From Candidatus Latescibacterota bacterium (GTDB taxonomy: Bacteria; Krumholzibacteriota; Krumholzibacteriia; WVZY01): a DNA stretch of 42,300 bases. The DNA is taken from assembly GCA_020352495.1 (NCBI GenBank), contig CP070677.1, positions 787,080 to 829,379 of the forward strand, written 5' to 3'. The notes under the pieces are model-generated. The model was given only the letters and a program-made list of their open reading frames with translations, was not told the origin of the DNA and did not search any database. Below are positions 775-13,129 of the stretch, one piece after another; the first letter of the stretch is position 1, and each line of letters starts with the position of its first letter. Made by a program: the position numbers and the translations under genes.

Positions 775-1935
775 CTACCTCAAGGCCTCGGCCACTGCAA
801 AATCGCGATCCAACCGAAAACTCTCAAAGACCTTCTCGTCGGTCACCGGCTTACCAGTCCTTATCAGACTCACCACGTCCTCGGCAAGTCCCGGTCCAAG
901 CATAAACCCCTGCCCGCAGAGCCCCACGGCGTAGTGGTAGCCCGCGATTTCACGAGAGCTCCCCACAATAGGCATGCCGTCGGGTGTCTGCGGATAGCAC
1001 CCACGCCACACTCGCCGCACACGGAGGTTGGAAAGTTTTGGCAGAAGGTCAACCATCTTCTTTGACACGACGGGAAGAAACATCGCCGTCGAATCGCGAT
1101 TGGTCCCCGGGGAGATGGGATCGGGCGTCAAACAAAAGACGATTTGATTTGCCGAATTCTGATAAAAGTAACAGTTCTTCGACCCCGGTGTCACACGGAT
1201 ATCGACAATGAGCGGGTCAAAGAGCCGTTCAACCGGTTCGGTGACACCGGCCTCATGCGAGTCGGGGTTTACCGGAAGCTCGATTCCAACGGGCCTTCCC
1301 ATCTCAGGCGCATTTGACCCCGCCGCATTTAGGACGTGTTTGCATGGGTACTCGCCCTTATCCGTCACCACTCCCGTTACCCTTCCCTTTTCGACTTCGA
1401 TCCCGGTGACGGTCTCGTTAAAGCGGAACTCGGCCCCCTCGCGTCTCGCCACACGCGAAAACGCAGCCGTGCATTTCAACGGTGATGCATTACCGTCATC
1501 CGGGGAGTAGGTGCCGCCACACAGATCTTCGCGACGGATCCCCGGTACGAGCTTGGCCACCTCTTCGGGTCCAATCCAATCGATGTTGAGCCCATGCGAC
1601 TTCTGCACATCGAGAAGACCTTTGAGCGTTGTTTCGTCTTTTTCCGTGTAAATCGGAAAAAGATACCCGCCCTTTCGCCAACCAAGGTCATCCCCCTCCC
1701 GGTCTTCCCATTCACTAAACACGTCAATCGAACGCAGACAAATACGGATCTTTGCGGGATCGGAGTGCGTGGCGCGGATACCGCCGATCGCGGTTTTTGC
1801 CTCACCCTGTCCCGCCGACGGTTGCTTGTCGAGAACAAGAGTCGAGAGTCCCGAACGCTGAGCATAGAGCGCCACCGGCACGCCGATCGAACCGGCGCCG
1901 ATGATGACGAGGTCGTATGTATTCCCGCTCGTCAT
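775..1935 (-). CDS. DAO-family FAD-dependent oxidoreductase subunit
   Basis: This 386-aa protein has an N-terminal dinucleotide-binding motif (VIIGAGSIG, residues 10-18) followed by the DAO-family layout. Near the C-terminus PDGMPIVG and GLCGQGFMLGPGLAED match the conserved FAD-contacting end of sarcosine/glycine/proline dehydrogenase-type enzymes. There is no signal peptide. Its ATG overlaps the TGA of the upstream iron-sulfur flavoprotein by four bases (ATGA, 1932-1935), so the two are almost certainly translationally coupled and probably form one complex. Known relatives with this partner arrangement include hydrogen cyanide synthase HcnABC, octopine/nopaline oxidase, D-hydroxyproline dehydrogenase and archaeal-type proline dehydrogenases. 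This subunit would oxidise a secondary or alpha-amino acid at its own FAD. The substrate cannot be read from sequence alone. Confidence 0.9.
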   Translation of the reverse strand: MTSGNTYDLVIIGAGSIGVPVALYAQRSGLSTLVLDKQPSAGQGEAKTAIGGIRATHSDPAKIRICLRSIDVFSEWEDREGDDLGWRKGGYLFPIYTEKDETTLKGLLDVQKSHGLNIDWIGPEEVAKLVPGIRREDLCGGTYSPDDGNASPLKCTAAFSRVARREGAEFRFNETVTGIEVEKGRVTGVVTDKGEYPCKHVLNAAGSNAPEMGRPVGIELPVNPDSHEAGVTEPVERLFDPLIVDIRVTPGSKNCYFYQNSANQIVFCLTPDPISPGTNRDSTAMFLPVVSKKMVDLLPKLSNLRVRRVWRGCYPQTPDGMPIVGSSREIAGYHYAVGLCGQGFMLGPGLAEDVVSLIRTGKPVTDEKVFESFRLDRDFAVAEALR

Positions 1936-4085
1936 TTTTCCGAATCACTCTCTTTCTCGGACTCTGTCCCAGCAAAATACCCGAGAGGGACCTCGGCAAC
2001 CAGCGGCCGATCGGTGTACGGCGTGACATCGTCCTGTGAGATCCCCTCTTTTCTAAAAATCGCGCCGATGAGCGGCCCGCAGGTTTTCCCCCCACAGGCT
2101 CCCATTCCACTTGCCAGAGCCGTCTTGAGCTGGTTCATATCGCGAAGACCATCCCGGATCGCCTCCCTGATATCACCCACCGTCACCCGCTGACACCGAC
2201 AGACGACCGCCTCGTCCTCGGCAACCGACGGATCCAACGTTTCGATCGGTCGTGTGATCTCCTCGTCTTGTATGCGGATGCCGGCGATACCCATCGCCAC
2301 GTCCTCATCGACTTCGAGTTTCACCAAGATCTTTTTTCGAATCAGATCAGGTGATGCGGCAATACGAGCCTCCACGGGAGGGGCGTTTTTGTCCGGCATG
2401 GGCCATTTCCTTGGCATCACTTTGATGACCTTCGCCTCGCAAATTGTTTCGCCTTTTTGACCGACAGCGGTCACCGTATCACCCTTTTTGAAATCAACAA
2501 GCAGCTCCAACGGCACCGTGACCCACGCCTTTCCCGGAGGCGTCTTCTCCGATTGATCGATAAAGGTAATCGCCAGGGCGGGGCACGCGAGCACACACTT
2601 GAGACATCGATCACACCCGCCCACGAACTCGGGACGCTCGATGATTCCCCCGCCAAAAATCTGTATCGCCCCTTCGGGACAGACTTCCGAGCAAGGATTG
2701 CACGGTATTGTCTCTGGACAATAAATGAGGGGAAACTTTTTTGATCCGTCATCGGGGGCAACGGCCGGTTCGTTTTCCCGGCCCGGCTTGGCCTTTAGGA
2801 TCTCCGCCATCTCCTCCCATTCGGTGGGAACGGTGACCTTCTTCCCGTGTTGTTTTGCTATCTTTCGGCCCGCGACCCTTCCCGAGAACATTGCGGCAGA
2901 CGCCTCGGCAATCTCCTCTGCGTCGCCGGCAATATGCGAATCGATGCCAAACTTGAGCGCTGCACGATGAAGCTCGTTTACCGGTTCGAGCCCGACGGCA
3001 ATGAGGAGTGTGTCACACGGATACGTGCGGTACGTCCCCGGAAGGATATTCCATTCTTTGTCGACCTCGGCGACGGTGACCGACTCGACCGACTCCTTGC
3101 CATTTGCGCACACCACGGTTGTCGATGTGTAGATCGGCACGCCAAGCCGTCGTAGCTTGTCCGCGTGAACCATGTAACCCCCGACCTCGGGCATCGCCTC
3201 GATGAGACCGACGACGGTGATCCCCGCCTGGATTGCGTGATATCCGGCAATGGTGCCGACATTCCCACCACCGACAATAAATAGTTTTTCGGAGGGTCTA
3301 ACCAAGTCGCGGTTGAGCAATGTCTGAAACGCCCCCGCCCCATAGACACCGGGAAGATCACACCCGGGAAACACGAGCGCCTTCTCACGGGCCCCCGCCG
3401 CGACGAGAAGGCTCTTTGGTTTGATGAGCTTATAAACCTTGTGATCGAGAACTCCGACTTTACCTTCCACATACACACCCACGGCCATCGTCGACATCAT
3501 TACCGACACGTTGTCGCGTTCGGCCGCCTCGTCGGCAAGGATCTTTGCGATGTCGATTCCCCGCGTGCCTGCATAACAGTCTTCGACCGATCCAAAAAAG
3601 GGATGGGTCTGGAGAACGAGTTTCCCACCCGGAGAATCCTTGTCATCGACGACGATCACCGAGAGCCCCGCGTCGGCCGCTTCGATCGCCGCCCCCAGAC
3701 CCGACGGCCCCGCTCCAATAACCAGAAGATCACATTCGAGCTCATCGATATCGTGGAGTTCGATCTCTTCCCGATTGACGTCGGGAAGACCCGGGAAATT
3801 CACGAGCCCCTGAACGTGCATTCCCTCCGTGATCTGTTCCATACAGGCCTTCACGGGGAGACCGTCGGCGATCACGAGACACTGCGAACACTGTCCGTTG
3901 GCGCAAAAGATACCTTGTGGCGACTCATCGCGGGGATGGAGCCCAAATGTCCGTATCCCGTTGGCAAAGAGCGCGCTGGAGATAACCTCCCCTATTCGCG
4001 CCGGCATGGCTCTGCCCTCAAAATAGAACGTGATCTCATCGATGTCGGGGGTGTTGAGGACGGGATGCTTATCGACTCGTCTCAT
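1932..4085 (-). CDS. Fused [2Fe-2S]/FAD/ferredoxin/BFD oxidoreductase (HcnA-HcnB type)
   Basis: I place the start at the ATG at 4085 (717 aa) because AGAGG lies eight to nine bases upstream; an in-frame ATG at 4184 would add 33 residues unlike the family. Domains in order: an N-terminal Fer2_4-like [2Fe-2S] domain (Cys 61, 66, 69, 81); a FAD/NAD(P) disulfide-oxidoreductase-like domain (GAGPSG at 124-129, second GGGNVG at 272-277); a dicluster ferredoxin (Cys 456, 462, 465, 469 and Cys 491, 494, 497, 501); and a C-terminal BFD-like [2Fe-2S] domain (CRC at 629-631, CGGKTC at 664-669). HcnA and HcnB are usually separate, and the internal 2[4Fe-4S] module is an extra. It probably passes electrons from the DAO subunit encoded directly downstream to a quinone or soluble carrier. 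Confidence 0.9.
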   Translation of the reverse strand: MRRVDKHPVLNTPDIDEITFYFEGRAMPARIGEVISSALFANGIRTFGLHPRDESPQGIFCANGQCSQCLVIADGLPVKACMEQITEGMHVQGLVNFPGLPDVNREEIELHDIDELECDLLVIGAGPSGLGAAIEAADAGLSVIVVDDKDSPGGKLVLQTHPFFGSVEDCYAGTRGIDIAKILADEAAERDNVSVMMSTMAVGVYVEGKVGVLDHKVYKLIKPKSLLVAAGAREKALVFPGCDLPGVYGAGAFQTLLNRDLVRPSEKLFIVGGGNVGTIAGYHAIQAGITVVGLIEAMPEVGGYMVHADKLRRLGVPIYTSTTVVCANGKESVESVTVAEVDKEWNILPGTYRTYPCDTLLIAVGLEPVNELHRAALKFGIDSHIAGDAEEIAEASAAMFSGRVAGRKIAKQHGKKVTVPTEWEEMAEILKAKPGRENEPAVAPDDGSKKFPLIYCPETIPCNPCSEVCPEGAIQIFGGGIIERPEFVGGCDRCLKCVLACPALAITFIDQSEKTPPGKAWVTVPLELLVDFKKGDTVTAVGQKGETICEAKVIKVMPRKWPMPDKNAPPVEARIAASPDLIRKKILVKLEVDEDVAMGIAGIRIQDEEITRPIETLDPSVAEDEAVVCRCQRVTVGDIREAIRDGLRDMNQLKTALASGMGACGGKTCGPLIGAIFRKEGISQDDVTPYTDRPLVAEVPLGYFAGTESEKESDSEK

Positions 4086-4112
4086 GTCGTCGGACCTCTT
4101 GTTTTCTTCAAC

Positions 4113-4134
4113 ATGCCCGTGAACTGACGGGCAT
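4113..4134. promoter_or_regulatory. Perfect 8-bp inverted repeat in the oxidoreductase leader
   Basis: ATGCCCGT (4113-4120) and ACGGGCAT (4127-4134) flank a 6-base loop about 28 bases before the start codon at 4085. It could be an operator or an RNA hairpin. No U-tract follows it on the minus strand, so it is not an ordinary terminator. Confidence 0.4.
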
Positions 4135-4146
4135 AAGCAATAGATA

Positions 4147-4162
4147 TTGTTATGCTTAACAA
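4147..4162. promoter_or_regulatory. Palindromic operator candidate
   Basis: TTGTTA and TAACAA flank TGCT on the plus strand, a perfect 6-4-6 palindrome typical in size of a dimeric repressor site. It lies about 60 bases upstream of the oxidoreductase start. No regulator gene sits next to it. Confidence 0.35.
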
Positions 4163-4686
4163 CACCGATGGGCATCGTGTGCAAAGGGCACCAAGTGGGA
4201 CGAGATCAGAATTTCTCTCCGGTCAAAATAACACAAAACCCGACAAAATCCTAGGAATGATGACCCGACTTAAGTCGGTTATTTTACACGGGACTGAGCC
4301 ACGTCTCGGTCGGCCAAACAAAGAAACCCAACTGCACAATTCAGAGATTCATATCGTCAACGTCCACCTCGAGGACGGGGCGTCGGCTGTCTCTGTGGCT
4401 CCGTCTTCCCGTGTCCGCCGAACCGTTCGTTGACGGGCTATGCGGGGAGTCATTCAAGCCTGACGAAATTGTTTTGGTCTCTGCTCTGAATCGAGAAAAC
4501 CCTGGTAATGACGGGCCAAACTGTGTTAGTGTTCTTCTCGATTCGCGAACTTTAGAATCCCAAGGGCAAAGCGGAGAATCTACCGATCGACACCAAACGG
4601 TCTTGTTGTTCGTGTGTACGAGACCGAGCTCCTCCGCCGTATCGTTGCGGTAAACCAATCAACCGTTTGATAGGGGGCGTCGGAAA

Positions 4687-7363: not shown

Positions 7364-7401
7364 CGTCCGTGCGTCGGATGGGAATCGGACGCAGCAACAC
7401 A

Positions 7402-8613
7402 CTATTTGAGGAGCGTCAATCTCTTGACCTGCGTCTCTCCTTCGGCCTCGAGACGGGCAAAATAGACTCCACTCGGAAGCGACGCTGCCTCCCATTCGAT
7501 CACGTGCTCGCCGGCTTCTCTCGTGCCGTCAACCAGCACCTCGACCAAACGACCGGATACGTCGTAGACGGCGAGACGGACGTTATCGGTCTCAGGGAGG
7601 AGGAAGGTGATCGTCGTTACAGGGTTGAACGGGTTTGGATACACGTGCTTCAACACCGGTGATGTAACGCTCTCGAACATCATCGGTTCCTTACCACCAA
7701 CGACCTTGATGCAATCCGTTGCTTCAAACGGAATCCCGTCGAGATAGGTGCCTGTGGCAGTAAGCTCTACGACACCCATGGTACCGGCTCCGAGGACACC
7801 CGCGATGTCCTGCGAACGGAACTTCATCATCACATCGGGATAGCCGTCCGGGCCGTCTTCGGTACACTCACAGCCAACGGGATCGACCAACCCGGCCGCG
7901 ACATCCCTGATCTTGGGCCCACCGCCCTGGTCGAGCGGGGCGATGCCCTCAAGCCGAATCGACGATAGATCGATCTCACCGACATCAAACGTCTCACTCC
8001 CGAGAATCGCCACAGGGAGCACCCCACCCTTTCTCGGCTTGGAGCCATCCTGAGCCCACTGGAACAGATGGGAGTTGAACGGATTCGGACACGAAAGCGG
8101 TTTGATGTCGAGATCCACAAACGGACAAATCGCGGAACACCTACCCTCACCGGGGACCAACTCAAAGTCCGGGAATCGCACACCGCAAACCTCGCCCAAT
8201 ACAGGGTGAGGCTCGACGCAAATCAGATGGTTTTTCACACTGCAGTCGGTGCAATTCCATGATACAAAGGCCCTCATGACTTCGAACGGTTCGTACCCAT
8301 TGAATGGTAGCCCCCATCCCATCGAAATGCCGCTTGGCGAGTCCCCGATTGTCACCGGAGGAGTATTCATATCCCCCAGCCAAGTCATGCAGGATGGGTA
8401 GTCGATCCTGAATTCGAGACCCACCAAGTTGATATCCCAGTCCTCCGCTATGACGTGGAGCGTAGCGAAACCGGGACCGGGGCAGTCGATCGCACGTGTG
8501 AGTTCTCCATCGTCTTCGAAATACACCGTTACCTTCCCGGTCTGGCCAATCGCCGGCGCAGCGACCAGTCCGAGTACCAATACAAACACTAGACCGCCAA
8601 ATGCGGGTCGCAT
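7402..8613 (-). CDS. Secreted protein with FlgD-like/type IX-type C-terminal sorting domain
   Basis: The 403-aa product begins with a clear signal peptide (hydrophobic residues about 5-20, AAPAIGQ cleavage region). The last 75 or so residues form the FlgD-like Ig fold used as a C-terminal sorting signal. They open with YPNPFNPVTTI and continue through VYDVSGRLVEVLVDG and LPSGVYFARLEAEG to the final KRLTLLK. The middle region contains several cysteines (VEPHPVLGEVCG, CSAICPF) and a segment (LDIKPLSCPNPFN ... GVLPVAILGSETFDVGEID) often seen in exported proteins of candidate phyla. No catalytic motif is visible. AAGGAGG seven to eight bases upstream fixes the ATG. It is monocistronic, with a promoter at 8812-8840 and a strong terminator. 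It is likely displayed or released at the cell surface; its specific role is unknown. Confidence 0.88.
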   Translation of the reverse strand: MRPAFGGLVFVLVLGLVAAPAIGQTGKVTVYFEDDGELTRAIDCPGPGFATLHVIAEDWDINLVGLEFRIDYPSCMTWLGDMNTPPVTIGDSPSGISMGWGLPFNGYEPFEVMRAFVSWNCTDCSVKNHLICVEPHPVLGEVCGVRFPDFELVPGEGRCSAICPFVDLDIKPLSCPNPFNSHLFQWAQDGSKPRKGGVLPVAILGSETFDVGEIDLSSIRLEGIAPLDQGGGPKIRDVAAGLVDPVGCECTEDGPDGYPDVMMKFRSQDIAGVLGAGTMGVVELTATGTYLDGIPFEATDCIKVVGGKEPMMFESVTSPVLKHVYPNPFNPVTTITFLLPETDNVRLAVYDVSGRLVEVLVDGTREAGEHVIEWEAASLPSGVYFARLEAEGETQVKRLTLLK

Positions 8614-9014
8614 TACAAACCTCCTTGTTATGTTCTTTCGGGGTTAGTCGAATGGCCTACGTGGCCGGCAATACGGCAGGTCCTCGACACGAGGCAGAAT
8701 ATGGTGGCCGGAGTCCCTTCGCTCCCCCCCTTTCCTCGGCACTTCTGCCAGCGAAAGAACTTTTGCGGGAATCACATGCGCCTTGTGGGAAACCACTTGC
8801 TGCGCACCCGTAACATAGCACCACTTTGGGGTTTCGACAAGGTGCCGACCCGTCGAAAACGGCCGTGCAATGGGCAGATTACAGCGTCGGGATCCCAGGT
8901 CCCAATCTGGGTGCTTCCAAATCAGATCGTCGGCATCTGCGCACGGCGCGGTGAATACGCGCAGATCGGACCGTGCGTGGGACCGCTCAGGGTGAGGCCG
9001 GCCCCGAGTGCCGC
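8614..9014. other. Intergenic region between the secreted protein and transketolase-like genes
   Basis: About 400 bases lie here without a credible gene. They hold the promoter of the downstream minus-strand gene (8812-8840) and an inverted repeat with 8-bp arms ATCTGCGC (8935-8942) and GCGCAGAT (8959-8966). The repeat lies 50 bases past the transketolase-like stop codon but has no U-tract after it on the minus strand. Confidence 0.5.
8812..8840 (-). promoter_or_regulatory. Promoter candidate for the sorting-domain protein gene
   Basis: TTGTCG (8835-8840), 17 bases, then TATGTT (8812-8817) preceded by TG plus one base, on the minus strand. It would give a leader of about 190 bases. Confidence 0.5.
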
Positions 9015-11372
9015 TTACCTCTCTTTTACGTACCGCACGATGGCCTGGAACTGGCTTTCTCCATCGAGCCCGGCTTCGGCGATCACCTTGTCGGCTTGCC
9101 CGCTTCCAAGGAAGTGACCTTTTTGGAACGGGTGAAGGGTCATCGCGCGGCCACGCTCCGAGCAGATCCAGCGGTACATGGTGGGTAGCGTGAATCCCGT
9201 GATTCCCATGGCCTCCTGGGCGAGGGCTCGGGGGAATATGCGTTCCTGCTCCTCCGGCGGTAGGGCGTCGAAGAGCTCGGCGCTGGAGACATAATACACG
9301 TTGATATCGATCCCCTCCCCATCCAAAAGCGGCAGCGCGTCCTCGATAAATGCATACGCGACCTCGCTACCCTGCAAGACGACCGTCCCGGCGTCCTTCT
9401 CCTTGGCTCCGCGAAGGAGATACACACCTGTCACGGCATTGGTCGGAGGGGCCAAACGAAGCGCTTTTCGGTCGAGCACTTTCTCGGTTGGCCGTGTGAC
9501 AAACGGGGCGATGACACATGGCCGTTTCGCGAGCGCCGCGGTGACGAGCGGCCATACCTCTTGGGGATCCCACGGCGTGAGCGTAATCATCGTGCCGCGA
9601 GGAAAATTCTCCTCGAGCAGTTGGAGCGGTTGTGGATCGGCGTGGGTGGGACCGTCCTCACCGGTTTTCACACCGGCGTGGGCGCAGATCAAAAAGTACG
9701 GTTTGTACGGTTCGGTCGCAATGGCCTGCCGCGCCTGTTGACCGATGGCGTGGAGGCGGGAGGCGATGTGTCCCAGCGCGGCGATGAACGCGCCATACGA
9801 AGAACCCGCTCCCATGTGATGACCGTATGTCGATAGCCCCGAGAAAACTCCCGACATCGCATCCTCACAAATCCCGCCAATCGACAACAGCCGCGCGCCT
9901 GGATTGTTGAGCGAGTTGTAGTAACCATCGGGAAAACCTTTTCCCGCGACGTTCACACTGGTGGACCCCAGTAGGTCCGCCGCGGCGGCGAAGATCGCGC
10001 CCTCGCTCACCGTGTTGTAGTAGTTGAGCACCTTACCGAGCTCACCACGAAGCGTCGTCGCCGTCCCCGGCTCCAAAACGAGTTCTTTTGGGATCGAGCG
10101 CTCGTTGCCGGCGGCCGTCTCATAGACCTTTTCGATTTTGGGCGCCTTGTCACGAGGTTTCCGCTCGAGACAGTTGAGCCGTTCACGGGCGTCGAGAAGC
10201 CGCTGGGCCATGGCCTTGGTATCGACATAGCCGTTTTCCAACGCTTTTCGCACAACGAGAAGGGCATCCCAGAGACACTGCTCGACGACATCCGCGTCCT
10301 GACCCCCGTCACACCTTTCACAGTCCGTCTCACACGTTGGCAACCTCCCGCCGATCTTATCGAGCAACGGCTGGACCGCCTCGTAGAACCCATCCGAACA
10401 AAGCTTGTGACCCGCCCCGTGGGAGAGACGCCCCTCGATCCCATACTGCCACCCCTTGGTCGTCCGGTATACGATCGCCGTCGGCTGACCGTTATCGATC
10501 GTCCGGGCTTTCCGCTGCGCGGCCACGATTTGTTGGAAGTTTCGGCCGTCCGGGACGAGAATCACGTTCCAGTCATGGAGATAGGCAAACTCCATTGGAG
10601 TCCATTGGACATAGTCGCCCGGCTCTTCCCCATCGCGGCATACGTGGTTTGTATCGATCGATGCCTGATTCCAGTCGATATGCATGACGGCATTGCCAAG
10701 CGAGGCCGTCCCGGCCGCCGCCATCGCCTCACACACGCGTCCCGGAGTCATACCACCCTCACCCTCGACGATGTGAAGTCGCGGCGCCAATGCTCCGTAG
10801 TAGTCGAGCGCGCCAAGGGCAAGTCCTAACGATGTGGCCACACCCACACCTGAGGCGCCGGTCGACAAACGGATAAACGGTGTGGCCGGCGTCGGGTGGC
10901 CGTCCAGTGGTTTCGAGCTGAATTTCGAGAACAGAGGGGTTTTTGTTATCGGGTTTCGTCTGAACCCAAGAAGATCCTCGAGACGAAACTGGAGCTTCTC
11001 ATCCTTGGCAAGGAGCTGGGGGGCGCCTATCCTGGTGACCTCGTTTCTCAGCCCCCACATTGCGTAGAGCCCCAATGCCTTGTGCCCCGCCGCGTACGAG
11101 ATCATGTCCGCGTCCTGCCGGTCGGGATCCGACACGTCGTAATCCATCGCATCAAACACGATCGCGGCTACGAACCGCCCCGAAGAGATGGACCCACCCG
11201 GGTGACCGGACATGGGGACATAATTGTAAAGCAATGCACATAGCGACCGGTAAACGAGGTCAAAGGCTTCGAAGTTCTTGACCTCATCGTCCGTAAGCGG
11301 TTTGCCAAGGGTTTTGAGCTCCTCTGCGATGTCGACATAGGTTCCTCGCCTCGGTCCAAACGCGAATCCCAT
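9015..11372 (-). CDS. Transketolase-like thiamine-diphosphate enzyme with Cys-rich linker
   Basis: This 785-aa protein is longer than typical transketolases (about 620-680 aa). The TPP domain shows SGHPGGSIS (His57), AGHKALGLY (His97) and the cofactor motif GEGG (204-207) with Asn235 in DWNQ. The pyrimidine domain has GICEDAM (Glu503, the expected activating glutamate) and GEDGPTHADPQ (571-577). The C-terminal transketolase domain closes the protein. Between the halves lies an insert of about 90 residues with Cys347, Cys351, Cys354 and Cys366, a CX3CX2C cluster not usual in the family. AAGGAG six bases upstream supports the ATG. It follows the aminotransferase gene by 112 bases in the same direction with no clear terminator between, so it probably shares the glycine riboswitch. 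A ketol-transfer reaction is likely; the actual substrates may not be pentose-phosphate sugars. Confidence 0.85.
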   Translation of the reverse strand: MGFAFGPRRGTYVDIAEELKTLGKPLTDDEVKNFEAFDLVYRSLCALLYNYVPMSGHPGGSISSGRFVAAIVFDAMDYDVSDPDRQDADMISYAAGHKALGLYAMWGLRNEVTRIGAPQLLAKDEKLQFRLEDLLGFRRNPITKTPLFSKFSSKPLDGHPTPATPFIRLSTGASGVGVATSLGLALGALDYYGALAPRLHIVEGEGGMTPGRVCEAMAAAGTASLGNAVMHIDWNQASIDTNHVCRDGEEPGDYVQWTPMEFAYLHDWNVILVPDGRNFQQIVAAQRKARTIDNGQPTAIVYRTTKGWQYGIEGRLSHGAGHKLCSDGFYEAVQPLLDKIGGRLPTCETDCERCDGGQDADVVEQCLWDALLVVRKALENGYVDTKAMAQRLLDARERLNCLERKPRDKAPKIEKVYETAAGNERSIPKELVLEPGTATTLRGELGKVLNYYNTVSEGAIFAAAADLLGSTSVNVAGKGFPDGYYNSLNNPGARLLSIGGICEDAMSGVFSGLSTYGHHMGAGSSYGAFIAALGHIASRLHAIGQQARQAIATEPYKPYFLICAHAGVKTGEDGPTHADPQPLQLLEENFPRGTMITLTPWDPQEVWPLVTAALAKRPCVIAPFVTRPTEKVLDRKALRLAPPTNAVTGVYLLRGAKEKDAGTVVLQGSEVAYAFIEDALPLLDGEGIDINVYYVSSAELFDALPPEEQERIFPRALAQEAMGITGFTLPTMYRWICSERGRAMTLHPFQKGHFLGSGQADKVIAEAGLDGESQFQAIVRYVKER

Positions 11373-11484
11373 GATACGCTCCTTTCACGACCCTCCGTTT
11401 CAATGATCCTCAACGATGATTGCCGGATGCCAGCTCCCGGCGAGGTCGGCCGCGCTTGGGCCGTCTGGCATCAAGCCGCTGGCA

Positions 11485-12783
11485 CTAATAGAGATGGTCT
11501 CCTTTTTCGAAGAAAACTTTGAATCCTTCCTTATCAACCGTCGCCGCCTCGATCCGCCGGACACCCTCCTTAAGGGAGTCCATGTCGGTCGCCGTCGACA
11601 ACCTCAAGAAATGTCTGCCCTCGCTTCCGATCGCCCCAAACGACCGGCGGTCCATTGTGGCCACGCCATGCTCATAGAGCGCAAACATCTGGAATATCGT
11701 CGAGGGACTGGTCACCTTTTTGGTCTTGGCGTCGAGGCCCTCGTAAGCGCCAACGACACCGAGAGTTTCACACGCACCCCCAATATTGGGAAAAACGTAA
11801 AACGCCCCCTCCGGTTTCTGGCAGCCGACACCATCGATCGCATTCAATGCGTCCACCACAACATCACGACGCTTCTGGAACTCGGCCACCATGGAAGTGA
11901 CGATGTCACGGTTTTCTGGTCCGTCGAGTGCCTGCTTCCCTGCTTCCTGGATAAACGGCGGCGTGCACGATATGATATTGATATTGAACTGACGAAAAAC
12001 CATCGCCTCGTCGACCGTCGGCAGCACGGCGTACCCCAGTCGCCACCCCGTCATCGCGTACGATTTGGAGTGTCCGCTCACCAGCACCGTCCTTTCGGCC
12101 ATTCCGGGCTGCGAGACAATGCTTTGATGCCTTTTCCCATCAAAAACGATGTCTTCGTAGACCTCGTCCGAATAGATCCGCAACCCTGGGCCGGCCTTTT
12201 CGCGGATCACGGCGGCGATGTCCTTCAGATCGTCTTCGGTGAGCACACCTCCCGTGGGATTCGAGGGGGAGTTGATGATCAACACCTTTGTTTTTGGCGT
12301 GATTAGCTTCTCGATGTCACCCGCATCGAACCGAAAGTTCTTTTCTTCCTCGAGATGAAGCGGCACGGGTTTGGCCCCAACGAATGTCACCCACGACTCG
12401 TAGATGGGAAACCCGGGGCTTGGGTATATCACTTCGTCCCCGGGATTGACGTACGCCATCATCGTGTACGAGATCGGCGGTTTGGCACCTGTGGTGACGA
12501 CCACCCGCTCGGGGACGGCGTCGATCCCTCTTGATTTGCTTACCTGACTCGCAATCGACTTTCTCAGCGGCAGAATCCCCTGGGGGTCGGTGTAGTGCGA
12601 GTTCCCCGCCTCGATGTTCTTGATTCCCACGCGGTTGATGTTTTCCGCGCTGTTGAAGTCGGGCTCTCCAAGATTGAGCTTGATGACTTTCATCCCTTTT
12701 TCTTCGCACCGCTTGATATCATCACCTATTTTAAATGCGTTCTCCGTACCCAGATCACTCACACGCCTAGAAAACACGCTCAT
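11485..12783 (-). CDS. Class I/II PLP-dependent aminotransferase under a glycine riboswitch
   Basis: The 432-aa product has all main fold-type I aspartate-aminotransferase landmarks: the NLGEPDF start, HYTDPQG, NSPSNPTGG (Asn175), YSDEVYED (Asp206, Tyr209), the PLP lysine in SGHSKSYAMTGWRLGYA (Lys240, Arg248) and a C-terminal arginine in HFLRLSTAT. This is the subgroup that includes aspartate, alanine and aromatic aminotransferases. It is slightly longer than usual, with an insertion around residues 365-385. GGGGGTGG four bases upstream supports the ATG. The 5' leader carries a tandem glycine riboswitch, so glycine is very probably a substrate, product or signal; a glycine/glyoxylate or serine-linked transamination is plausible but not proven. 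Confidence 0.92.
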   Translation of the reverse strand: MSVFSRRVSDLGTENAFKIGDDIKRCEEKGMKVIKLNLGEPDFNSAENINRVGIKNIEAGNSHYTDPQGILPLRKSIASQVSKSRGIDAVPERVVVTTGAKPPISYTMMAYVNPGDEVIYPSPGFPIYESWVTFVGAKPVPLHLEEEKNFRFDAGDIEKLITPKTKVLIINSPSNPTGGVLTEDDLKDIAAVIREKAGPGLRIYSDEVYEDIVFDGKRHQSIVSQPGMAERTVLVSGHSKSYAMTGWRLGYAVLPTVDEAMVFRQFNINIISCTPPFIQEAGKQALDGPENRDIVTSMVAEFQKRRDVVVDALNAIDGVGCQKPEGAFYVFPNIGGACETLGVVGAYEGLDAKTKKVTSPSTIFQMFALYEHGVATMDRRSFGAIGSEGRHFLRLSTATDMDSLKEGVRRIEAATVDKEGFKVFFEKGDHLY

Positions 12784-12871: not shown

Positions 12872-12895
12872 GGGGCAGAACTCTAATTCCGCCCC
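12872..12895 (-). terminator. Expression-platform terminator of the glycine riboswitch
   Basis: On the minus strand GGGGCGGAA pairs with TTCTGCCCC (9 bp with one G-U) around a TTAGAG loop, followed by CGTTTGTTT. Its 5' arm shares bases 12893-12895 with the 3' side of the second aptamer's P1 helix, so the two structures exclude each other. That arrangement predicts an ON switch: glycine stabilises P1 and prevents termination. Confidence 0.75.
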
Positions 12896-13080
12896 TGTCT
12901 TTTTTACCTGTGAGATTACCCTTACCGCTCAAGGGCTTACCCCGTCGGCGCCCAAGTCGATACCTTGAGACTTTCCAGGAGACACAGGGTTCCAGTCCTT
13001 TTGCCTGAGAGTTTCAGCCCACCTTGCGAAGGCCTTGCCCCTTCGGCGCCCGTTTGTCCCGGGCCTCTCCTGGGAACCCC
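12893..13080 (-). ncRNA. Tandem glycine riboswitch
   Basis: Read on the minus strand, aptamer 1 (about 13080-12987) matches the gcvT-type consensus closely: GGAGAG, then GCGCCGAAGGGGCAAG, then GAAACTCTCAGGCAAAAGGAC, closed by a P1 helix of GGGTTCC with GGAACCC. Aptamer 2 (about 12989-12893) has GCGCCGACGGGGTAAGC and AATCTCACAGGTAAAA with P1 of CCCTGT and ACAGGG. The two aptamers abut with nearly no linker. Aptamer 2 departs from consensus: GGAAAG instead of GGAGAG and CTCACAGG instead of CTCTCAGG. A terminator follows at 12872-12895, then the aminotransferase start at 12783. The family assignment of aptamer 1 is close to certain from motif order alone. Confidence 0.93.
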
Positions 13081-13100
13081 GATTAGACAACCGCTATTTT

Positions 13101-13129
13101 CACATATTGTTCGCGCGTTGGCAACACAA
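13101..13129 (-). promoter_or_regulatory. Possible promoter of the glycine riboswitch operon
   Basis: TTGTGT (13124-13129), 17 bases, then TATGTG (13101-13106) on the minus strand. The predicted start near 13095 falls just before the first aptamer at 13080, as expected, but both boxes are only moderate matches. Confidence 0.35.

Follow-up and report, generated by a model that had tools for sequence, protein, structure and literature searches.

What does a glycine riboswitch control when it stands ahead of an aminotransferase gene and a transketolase-like gene? The locus lies in a stretch of 42,300 nucleotides (the window), positions 787080-829379 of the one-contig 4.31 Mb genome of a Candidatus Latescibacterota bacterium, which is 91.5% complete. 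The genes known to be controlled by glycine riboswitches are those of the glycine cleavage system, transporter genes, and a small number of genes for serine and glyoxylate metabolism (PMC3766115, PMC2211319, PMC12452182). Metagenomic glycine riboswitches upstream of serC, encoding phosphoserine aminotransferase, and glcB, encoding malate synthase, resemble the window locus in falling outside the cleavage-system and transporter contexts and in having an aminotransferase as a target, but SerC is a COG1932 phosphoserine aminotransferase, whereas the window gene encodes a class I/II aminotransferase from its own dedicated clade and is accompanied by a transketolase (PMC2211319). In the literature that we searched, restricted to open-licence papers, no glycine riboswitch was described together with a transketolase.

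A sequence-only reading of the window had recognized a tandem glycine riboswitch at 12872-13080 on the minus strand, and the covariance-model search that it proposed was positive for the glycine riboswitch family RF00504. Aptamer 1 (12983-13082, minus strand) scored 67.2 bits with an E-value of 5.6e-12 in a whole-window search, and aptamer 2 (12885-12988, minus strand) scored 37.4 bits, both above the gathering score of 32 bits; the whole-window cmscan masked aptamer 2 as a lower-scoring match overlapping aptamer 1. The core motifs of aptamer 1 are intact, and aptamer 2 is degenerate by comparison, with GGAAAG instead of GGAGAG and CGCCGACGG instead of CGCCGAAGG. The two overlapping aptamers are followed by a single expression platform, a predicted intrinsic terminator hairpin at 12872-12895 (minus strand; −19.4 kcal/mol, z = −5.7) with a T-rich tail, although its U-tract is weak (GTTTGTTTGG). 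The reading was thus right about the tandem, and its span was correct to within a few bases. A candidate promoter with an extended −10 element (13096-13124, minus strand; TTGCCA-17-GAAAAT, with TGT before the −10 hexamer) lies 13 bases upstream of aptamer 1, in a consensus scan in which the number of sites was near that expected by chance. It is well supported that this RNA is a real tandem glycine riboswitch.

The GGGG segment that forms the 5′ arm of the terminator is also part of the 3′ strand of the P1 helix of aptamer 2: the covariance alignment places CAGGGG within that strand, and the terminator starts GGGGCGGAA. Because this segment is shared, P1 and the terminator are mutually exclusive. 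At high glycine, P1 of aptamer 2 would hold GGGG, the terminator would be blocked, and polymerase would read through into both genes, and at low glycine GGGG would seed the terminator. The leader anatomy is therefore that expected of a glycine-ON switch, and the sign of regulation would follow from the same P1/terminator overlap design as in the Bacillus subtilis gcvT tandem riboswitch, which is glycine-ON and forms its terminator when glycine is absent (PMC5666159). Both leaders belong to RF00504 and have two aptamers and one expression platform, but the B. subtilis switch controls gcvT-gcvPA-gcvPB rather than an aminotransferase and a transketolase-like gene, and its tandem lacks the degeneracy of the window's aptamer 2. 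In the window and in its genus mate, G001, conservation is far higher in aptamer 1 than in aptamer 2 (67.2 versus 37.4 bits and 66.4 versus 45.5 bits, respectively), a pattern that by analogy fits the catabolic context of Crum et al., who linked a better conserved aptamer 1 to glycine cleavage (GCV) genes, whose switches are usually of the ON type (PMC6944388). As a riboswitch, the window RNA is an ordinary family member; the novelty sits in the module that it regulates.

These two aptamers are the only glycine riboswitch in the window genome, where the glycine cleavage genes, at about 518.8-522.6 kb in the 516-526 kb region, have none in front of them. Among the 80 genomes of the phylum that we scanned, a glycine riboswitch was found in two, the window genome and G001, at the same aminotransferase in both, and none was found in other genera. 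G001 is the only other member of the genus that we found, and it matches the Candidatus Latescibacterota MAG CP070631, the named record nearest to the window genome. A search for the same arrangement in related genomes, as the sequence-only reading had suggested, thus recovered the leader within the genus, with the same tandem architecture and single platform. The promoter hexamers and their 17-base spacing are kept in G001 although the spacer sequence differs, as are the aptamer cores, the P1/terminator overlap, and the terminator hairpin, and the G001 U-tract is stronger than that of the window. Two pairs show compensatory changes between the leaders, from U-A to C-G in P1 and from C-G to U-A in P2. 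This conservation bears on whether the leader has decayed, leaving the genes outside glycine control: degenerate aptamer 2, the weak U-tract in the window, and the absence of the riboswitch from other genera would suit decay, but the preserved aptamer 1 core, P1/terminator overlap and promoter hexamers, the compensatory changes in P1 and P2, and the strong U-tract in G001 speak against it, and we regard a non-functional leader as highly improbable.

In G001 the aminotransferase gene is split, with its N-terminal part beside the riboswitch and its C-terminal part beside the transketolase gene 1.7 Mb away on the other strand. A true biological break was rejected, both ends abutting 100-N gaps, and the split is most likely a scaffold-joining artefact. 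The one-contig G001 assembly contains 100-N gaps that apparently join unrelated pieces.

The first gene of the window pair (11485-12783, minus strand) encodes a 432-aa PLP-dependent class I/II aminotransferase, in agreement with the class I assignment made from sequence (PF00155, E = 2e-59, 202 bits). It reached no NCBIfam equivalog cut-off, the best score being 274.5 against 617 bits, and does not group with aspartate aminotransferases (AspAT): its equivalog score is too low, and it falls outside the AspAT-like clade of its relatives. Together with the other aminotransferases found beside the same transketolase family it forms a single clade with support of 100/100, here called paired AT-I, which is separate from the class's AspAT-like enzymes, among them the further copies carried by the window genome and G001. 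The paired enzymes have an invariant [M/L]DRxSFG loop and a neighboring insertion, at a position where the AspAT-like enzymes have a glycine-containing loop such as SGTSFG.

The second gene (9015-11372, minus strand) begins 112 bases further on in the same direction, as had been noted, and encodes a 785-aa divergent transketolase-like ThDP enzyme, whose family we call TK-A. It matched PF00456 (E = 2e-14; 53.8 against a cut-off of 22 bits) and PF02779 (E = 3e-9; 37.2 against 27 bits) but missed the NCBIfam transketolase equivalog cut-off, with 130.7 against 488 bits. A structure model (pLDDT 87.7, pTM 0.91) was used in a fold search in which the best 50 PDB matches listed were all transketolases, with E-values down to 6.2e-33, TM scores of 0.74-0.81 depending on the target, and identities of about 20%. 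TK-A shares with canonical TktA (PF00456/PF02779) the fold, the ThDP site, and the catalytic residues: the equivalents of His26, His66, His100, His461, His473, Glu411, and Asp469 (E. coli numbering) are invariant in 32 aligned TK-A rows, and a likely counterpart of His261 is one column off in the alignment. Counterparts of the phosphate-site residues Arg358, Ser385, and His461 are likewise invariant in those rows, bar one gap at Ser385. It differs from TktA in its low identity (about 20%), in being about 100 residues longer, in having GEG in place of the metal-binding GDG, and in replacing Arg520 with Thr in all 32 rows, so that the phosphate site is not that of a canonical member. For the E. 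coli enzyme, R520Q was among the steps by which acceptor preference was shifted off phosphorylated aldehydes, and this change makes the active-site funnel wider (PMC5073344); since TK-A has Thr at this position, it is plausible by analogy that its acceptor differs from that of the canonical enzyme. In-frame N-terminal extensions at two of the compared loci (L101 and L122) were considered as fusions and rejected, one reading like translated non-coding DNA and the other holding a run of unknown residues. To our knowledge, no enzyme of either the paired aminotransferase or the TK-A family has been characterized.

TK-A relatives with 52-78% identity turned up in MAGs assigned to many phyla, and in 12 loci an aminotransferase gene with a product 53-84% identical to that of the window lies directly upstream. 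These pairs occur in Latescibacterota, Fibrobacterota, Schekmaniibacteriota, Planctomycetota (two), Myxococcota, Melainabacteria, Eiseniibacteriota, Verrucomicrobiota, and unassigned MAGs. Across about eight phyla the aminotransferase–TK-A pair recurs as a conserved module of two genes, a count that carries the approximate phylum labels of MAGs, which nearly all of the compared genomes are. In three of the loci the two genes nearly touch or overlap, and because of this the pair is very likely transcribed as one unit; in the window, the 112-base gap (11373-11484, minus strand) has a ribosome-binding-like site (GAAAGGAG) before the transketolase start and no predicted minus-strand terminator. 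TK-A also often occurs without an adjacent aminotransferase, as in those relatives from families f4, f5, and f8 that we inspected. Neither the Rfam model nor a model built here, with which weak riboswitches were sought, detected a glycine riboswitch at the pairs outside the genus (11 loci).

The catalytic resemblance of TK-A to transketolase raises the question of whether it merely acts as the organism's transketolase, a divergent stand-in for the canonical enzyme of the pentose phosphate pathway. In that case the riboswitch would serve the aminotransferase in glycine or serine degradation, and the transketolase would be on the same transcript by accident or to keep carbon generally in balance. 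Sorting the 58 genomes of the class by PF00456 score gave a canonical transketolase (>400 bits) in 11 and intermediate matches in three. No canonical enzyme was found in the window genome, whose best PF00456 score is 54 bits compared with 417-507 bits in relatives that have one; it encodes TK-A and a sibling family, TK-B, the two families being 28-30% identical. TK-A or TK-B is present in 46 of the 47 class relatives without a canonical enzyme. Within the class the two are nearly mutually exclusive, TK-A occurring mainly in families f4, f8, and f5 and TK-B in families f6 and f7, and both fill in for the rare canonical enzyme. TK-B of the window genome (C1:2807764-2809974) is 29% identical to TK-A and has one in-frame TAA, and is either a pseudogene or marked by a base error. 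In many genomes of the phylum the transketolases are all of divergent type and may escape standard annotation.

TK-A may thus be a working pentose phosphate transketolase, which would make its link to the riboswitch less specific. Several findings nevertheless argue against a housekeeping role as the explanation of the locus: G001 and three other genomes keep TK-A besides a canonical enzyme, the uniform Arg520 replacement marks TK-A off from that enzyme, and the adjacency to an aminotransferase extends over about eight phyla and involves two different types of aminotransferase, as described below, where TK-A is also the last gene of a glycine-riboswitch operon of serine enzymes. We consider the housekeeping explanation unlikely, though it is the strongest of the alternatives. 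It is also compatible with a role in glycine and serine metabolism, because one enzyme taking several donors can serve both.

The second riboswitch association came from the class Thermoleophilia, where 11 of 299 scanned genomes encode TK-A. Four loci (L035, L160, L162, and L163) carry a glycine riboswitch followed by an aminotransferase of another type (AT-II), a GcvT-SHMT fusion, and TK-A; in L035 the riboswitch (668-779) is followed by a hydroxypyruvate/glyoxylate reductase-like gene and then by AT-II, the fusion, and TK-A. A fifth operon (L164) comprises an aminotransferase, the same type of reductase, a glycerate 2-kinase (DUF4147/MOFRL), and TK-A, with no glycine riboswitch over the cut-off. 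TK-A has no adjoining aminotransferase in four others, and AT-II also adjoins TK-A in two further loci. A betaproteobacterial MAG encodes GcvT-SHMT and TK-A with glycerate 2-kinase downstream, and since its SHMT is 92% identical to that of L035, the contig may be misbinned or transferred. Five other loci with glycine riboswitches, in genomes that encode TK-A, were rejected as further links to it, since TK-A is not nearby; four of them have gcvT-like genes. The fusion protein, of about 890-900 aa, combines GcvT with an SHMT of divergent sequence (L160, 6122-8794; L035, 3261-5963). In L163, genes for an MtmB-family monomethylamine methyltransferase and a corrinoid protein (7401-9519, minus strand) lie just upstream of the riboswitch, hinting that methylamine-derived one-carbon units feed the SHMT operon.

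AT-II is 34% identical to AT-I and forms a separate clade, so a single transketolase family occurs with two distinct aminotransferases. AT-II has an arginine at the same loop ([T/S]RxHFG), and the Arg before FG in both types may reflect convergence on one substrate. A quick tree of TK-A, with at least three label changes, places the two lineages that have the riboswitch away from each other; because of this, and because AT-I and AT-II fall in different clades, glycine control and an aminotransferase were most likely joined to TK-A more than once.

The sequence-only reading had linked glycine to transamination and ketol transfer, perhaps in a glycine, glyoxylate, or serine route. The coupling has gained support from the genus-conserved leader, the occurrence of the pair in many phyla, and the Thermoleophilia operons with the same TK-A family, but the specific pathway stays tentative, and TK-A may be housekeeping. 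A glycine/serine route nonetheless appears likelier than that reading could have known, because a second lineage places a glycine riboswitch before an aminotransferase, GcvT-SHMT, and the same transketolase family.

SHMT, an aminotransferase, hydroxypyruvate reductase, and glycerate 2-kinase convert glycine via serine, hydroxypyruvate, and glycerate to 2-phosphoglycerate. Transketolases are known to accept hydroxypyruvate as a ketol donor, in an irreversible reaction. The company of SHMT, a reductase relative, and glycerate 2-kinase makes hydroxypyruvate the most likely product of the aminotransferase; as it is also a ketol donor, we propose serine transamination and ketol transfer on glycine excess. 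SHMT and the glycine cleavage system would convert glycine to serine, the aminotransferase would most likely deaminate serine to hydroxypyruvate, and TK-A would most likely transfer a two-carbon unit from hydroxypyruvate, or from another ketol, to an aldehyde; CO2 would be released, and the carbon would enter sugar (phosphate) metabolism. The active-site residues of TK-A do not single out hydroxypyruvate, since canonical transketolases accept it too. We give an even chance to this reading of the window, in which a glycine-ON tandem riboswitch controls a two-gene operon that would turn serine into hydroxypyruvate as ketol donor for TK-A.

Glycine being the ligand, the aminotransferase might instead turn glycine into glyoxylate, to which TK-A would add a ketol unit, giving a glycine/glyoxylate sink that bypasses serine. 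The presence in two Thermoleophilia operons of a relative of glyoxylate/hydroxypyruvate reductases would suit this, but SHMT and glycerate 2-kinase in such operons point to serine and hydroxypyruvate, and TK-A keeps D469 and H473, which handle hydroxyaldehyde substrates in canonical transketolase; we find this route improbable. The serine-to-hydroxypyruvate reading has a parallel in the methylotroph serine cycle, whose SHMT, serine aminotransferase, hydroxypyruvate reductase, and glycerate 2-kinase correspond to the enzyme types adjoining TK-A in Thermoleophilia, but that scheme has no transketolase, and the aminotransferases here are of class I/II. A DUF4147-type glycerate 2-kinase is absent from the window genome as an outlet. 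In the contiguous glycine riboswitches of the Streptomyces gcvT-gcvH-glyA-"sdhA" operon (as printed), Actinomycetota offer a further parallel to the Thermoleophilia operons, with glycine cleavage, SHMT, and a further gene under glycine control; the Streptomyces paper names neither an aminotransferase nor a transketolase, whereas in Thermoleophilia the outlet is an aminotransferase, in some operons with a reductase or kinase, and TK-A (PMC12452182).

More tentatively, and as a possibility rather than an expectation, the module may be widespread and hitherto undescribed: a dedicated serine (or glycine) aminotransferase would make hydroxypyruvate that the divergent transketolase uses as its physiological donor, moving glycine and serine carbon into sugars with release of CO2, and two or more unrelated lineages would have placed it under the control of a glycine riboswitch. 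If true, this would be a natural route from glycine and serine via hydroxypyruvate to sugars, and the list of glycine-riboswitch targets would gain a new class. Because a riboswitch names its ligand, it offers a rare functional clue for two uncharacterized enzyme families that co-occur in about eight phyla, most of them uncultured.

Two other minus-strand loci in the window were noted. Outside the riboswitch operon, two neighboring genes at 775-4184 encode a DAO-family FAD oxidoreductase (775-1935) and a protein resembling sarcosine oxidase alpha (1932-4184), which together look like a two-subunit amino-acid dehydrogenase that would make glycine if sarcosine is its substrate. The product of the gene at 7402-8613 carries a C-terminal sorting domain for type IX secretion, and this gene is unrelated to the riboswitch operon.
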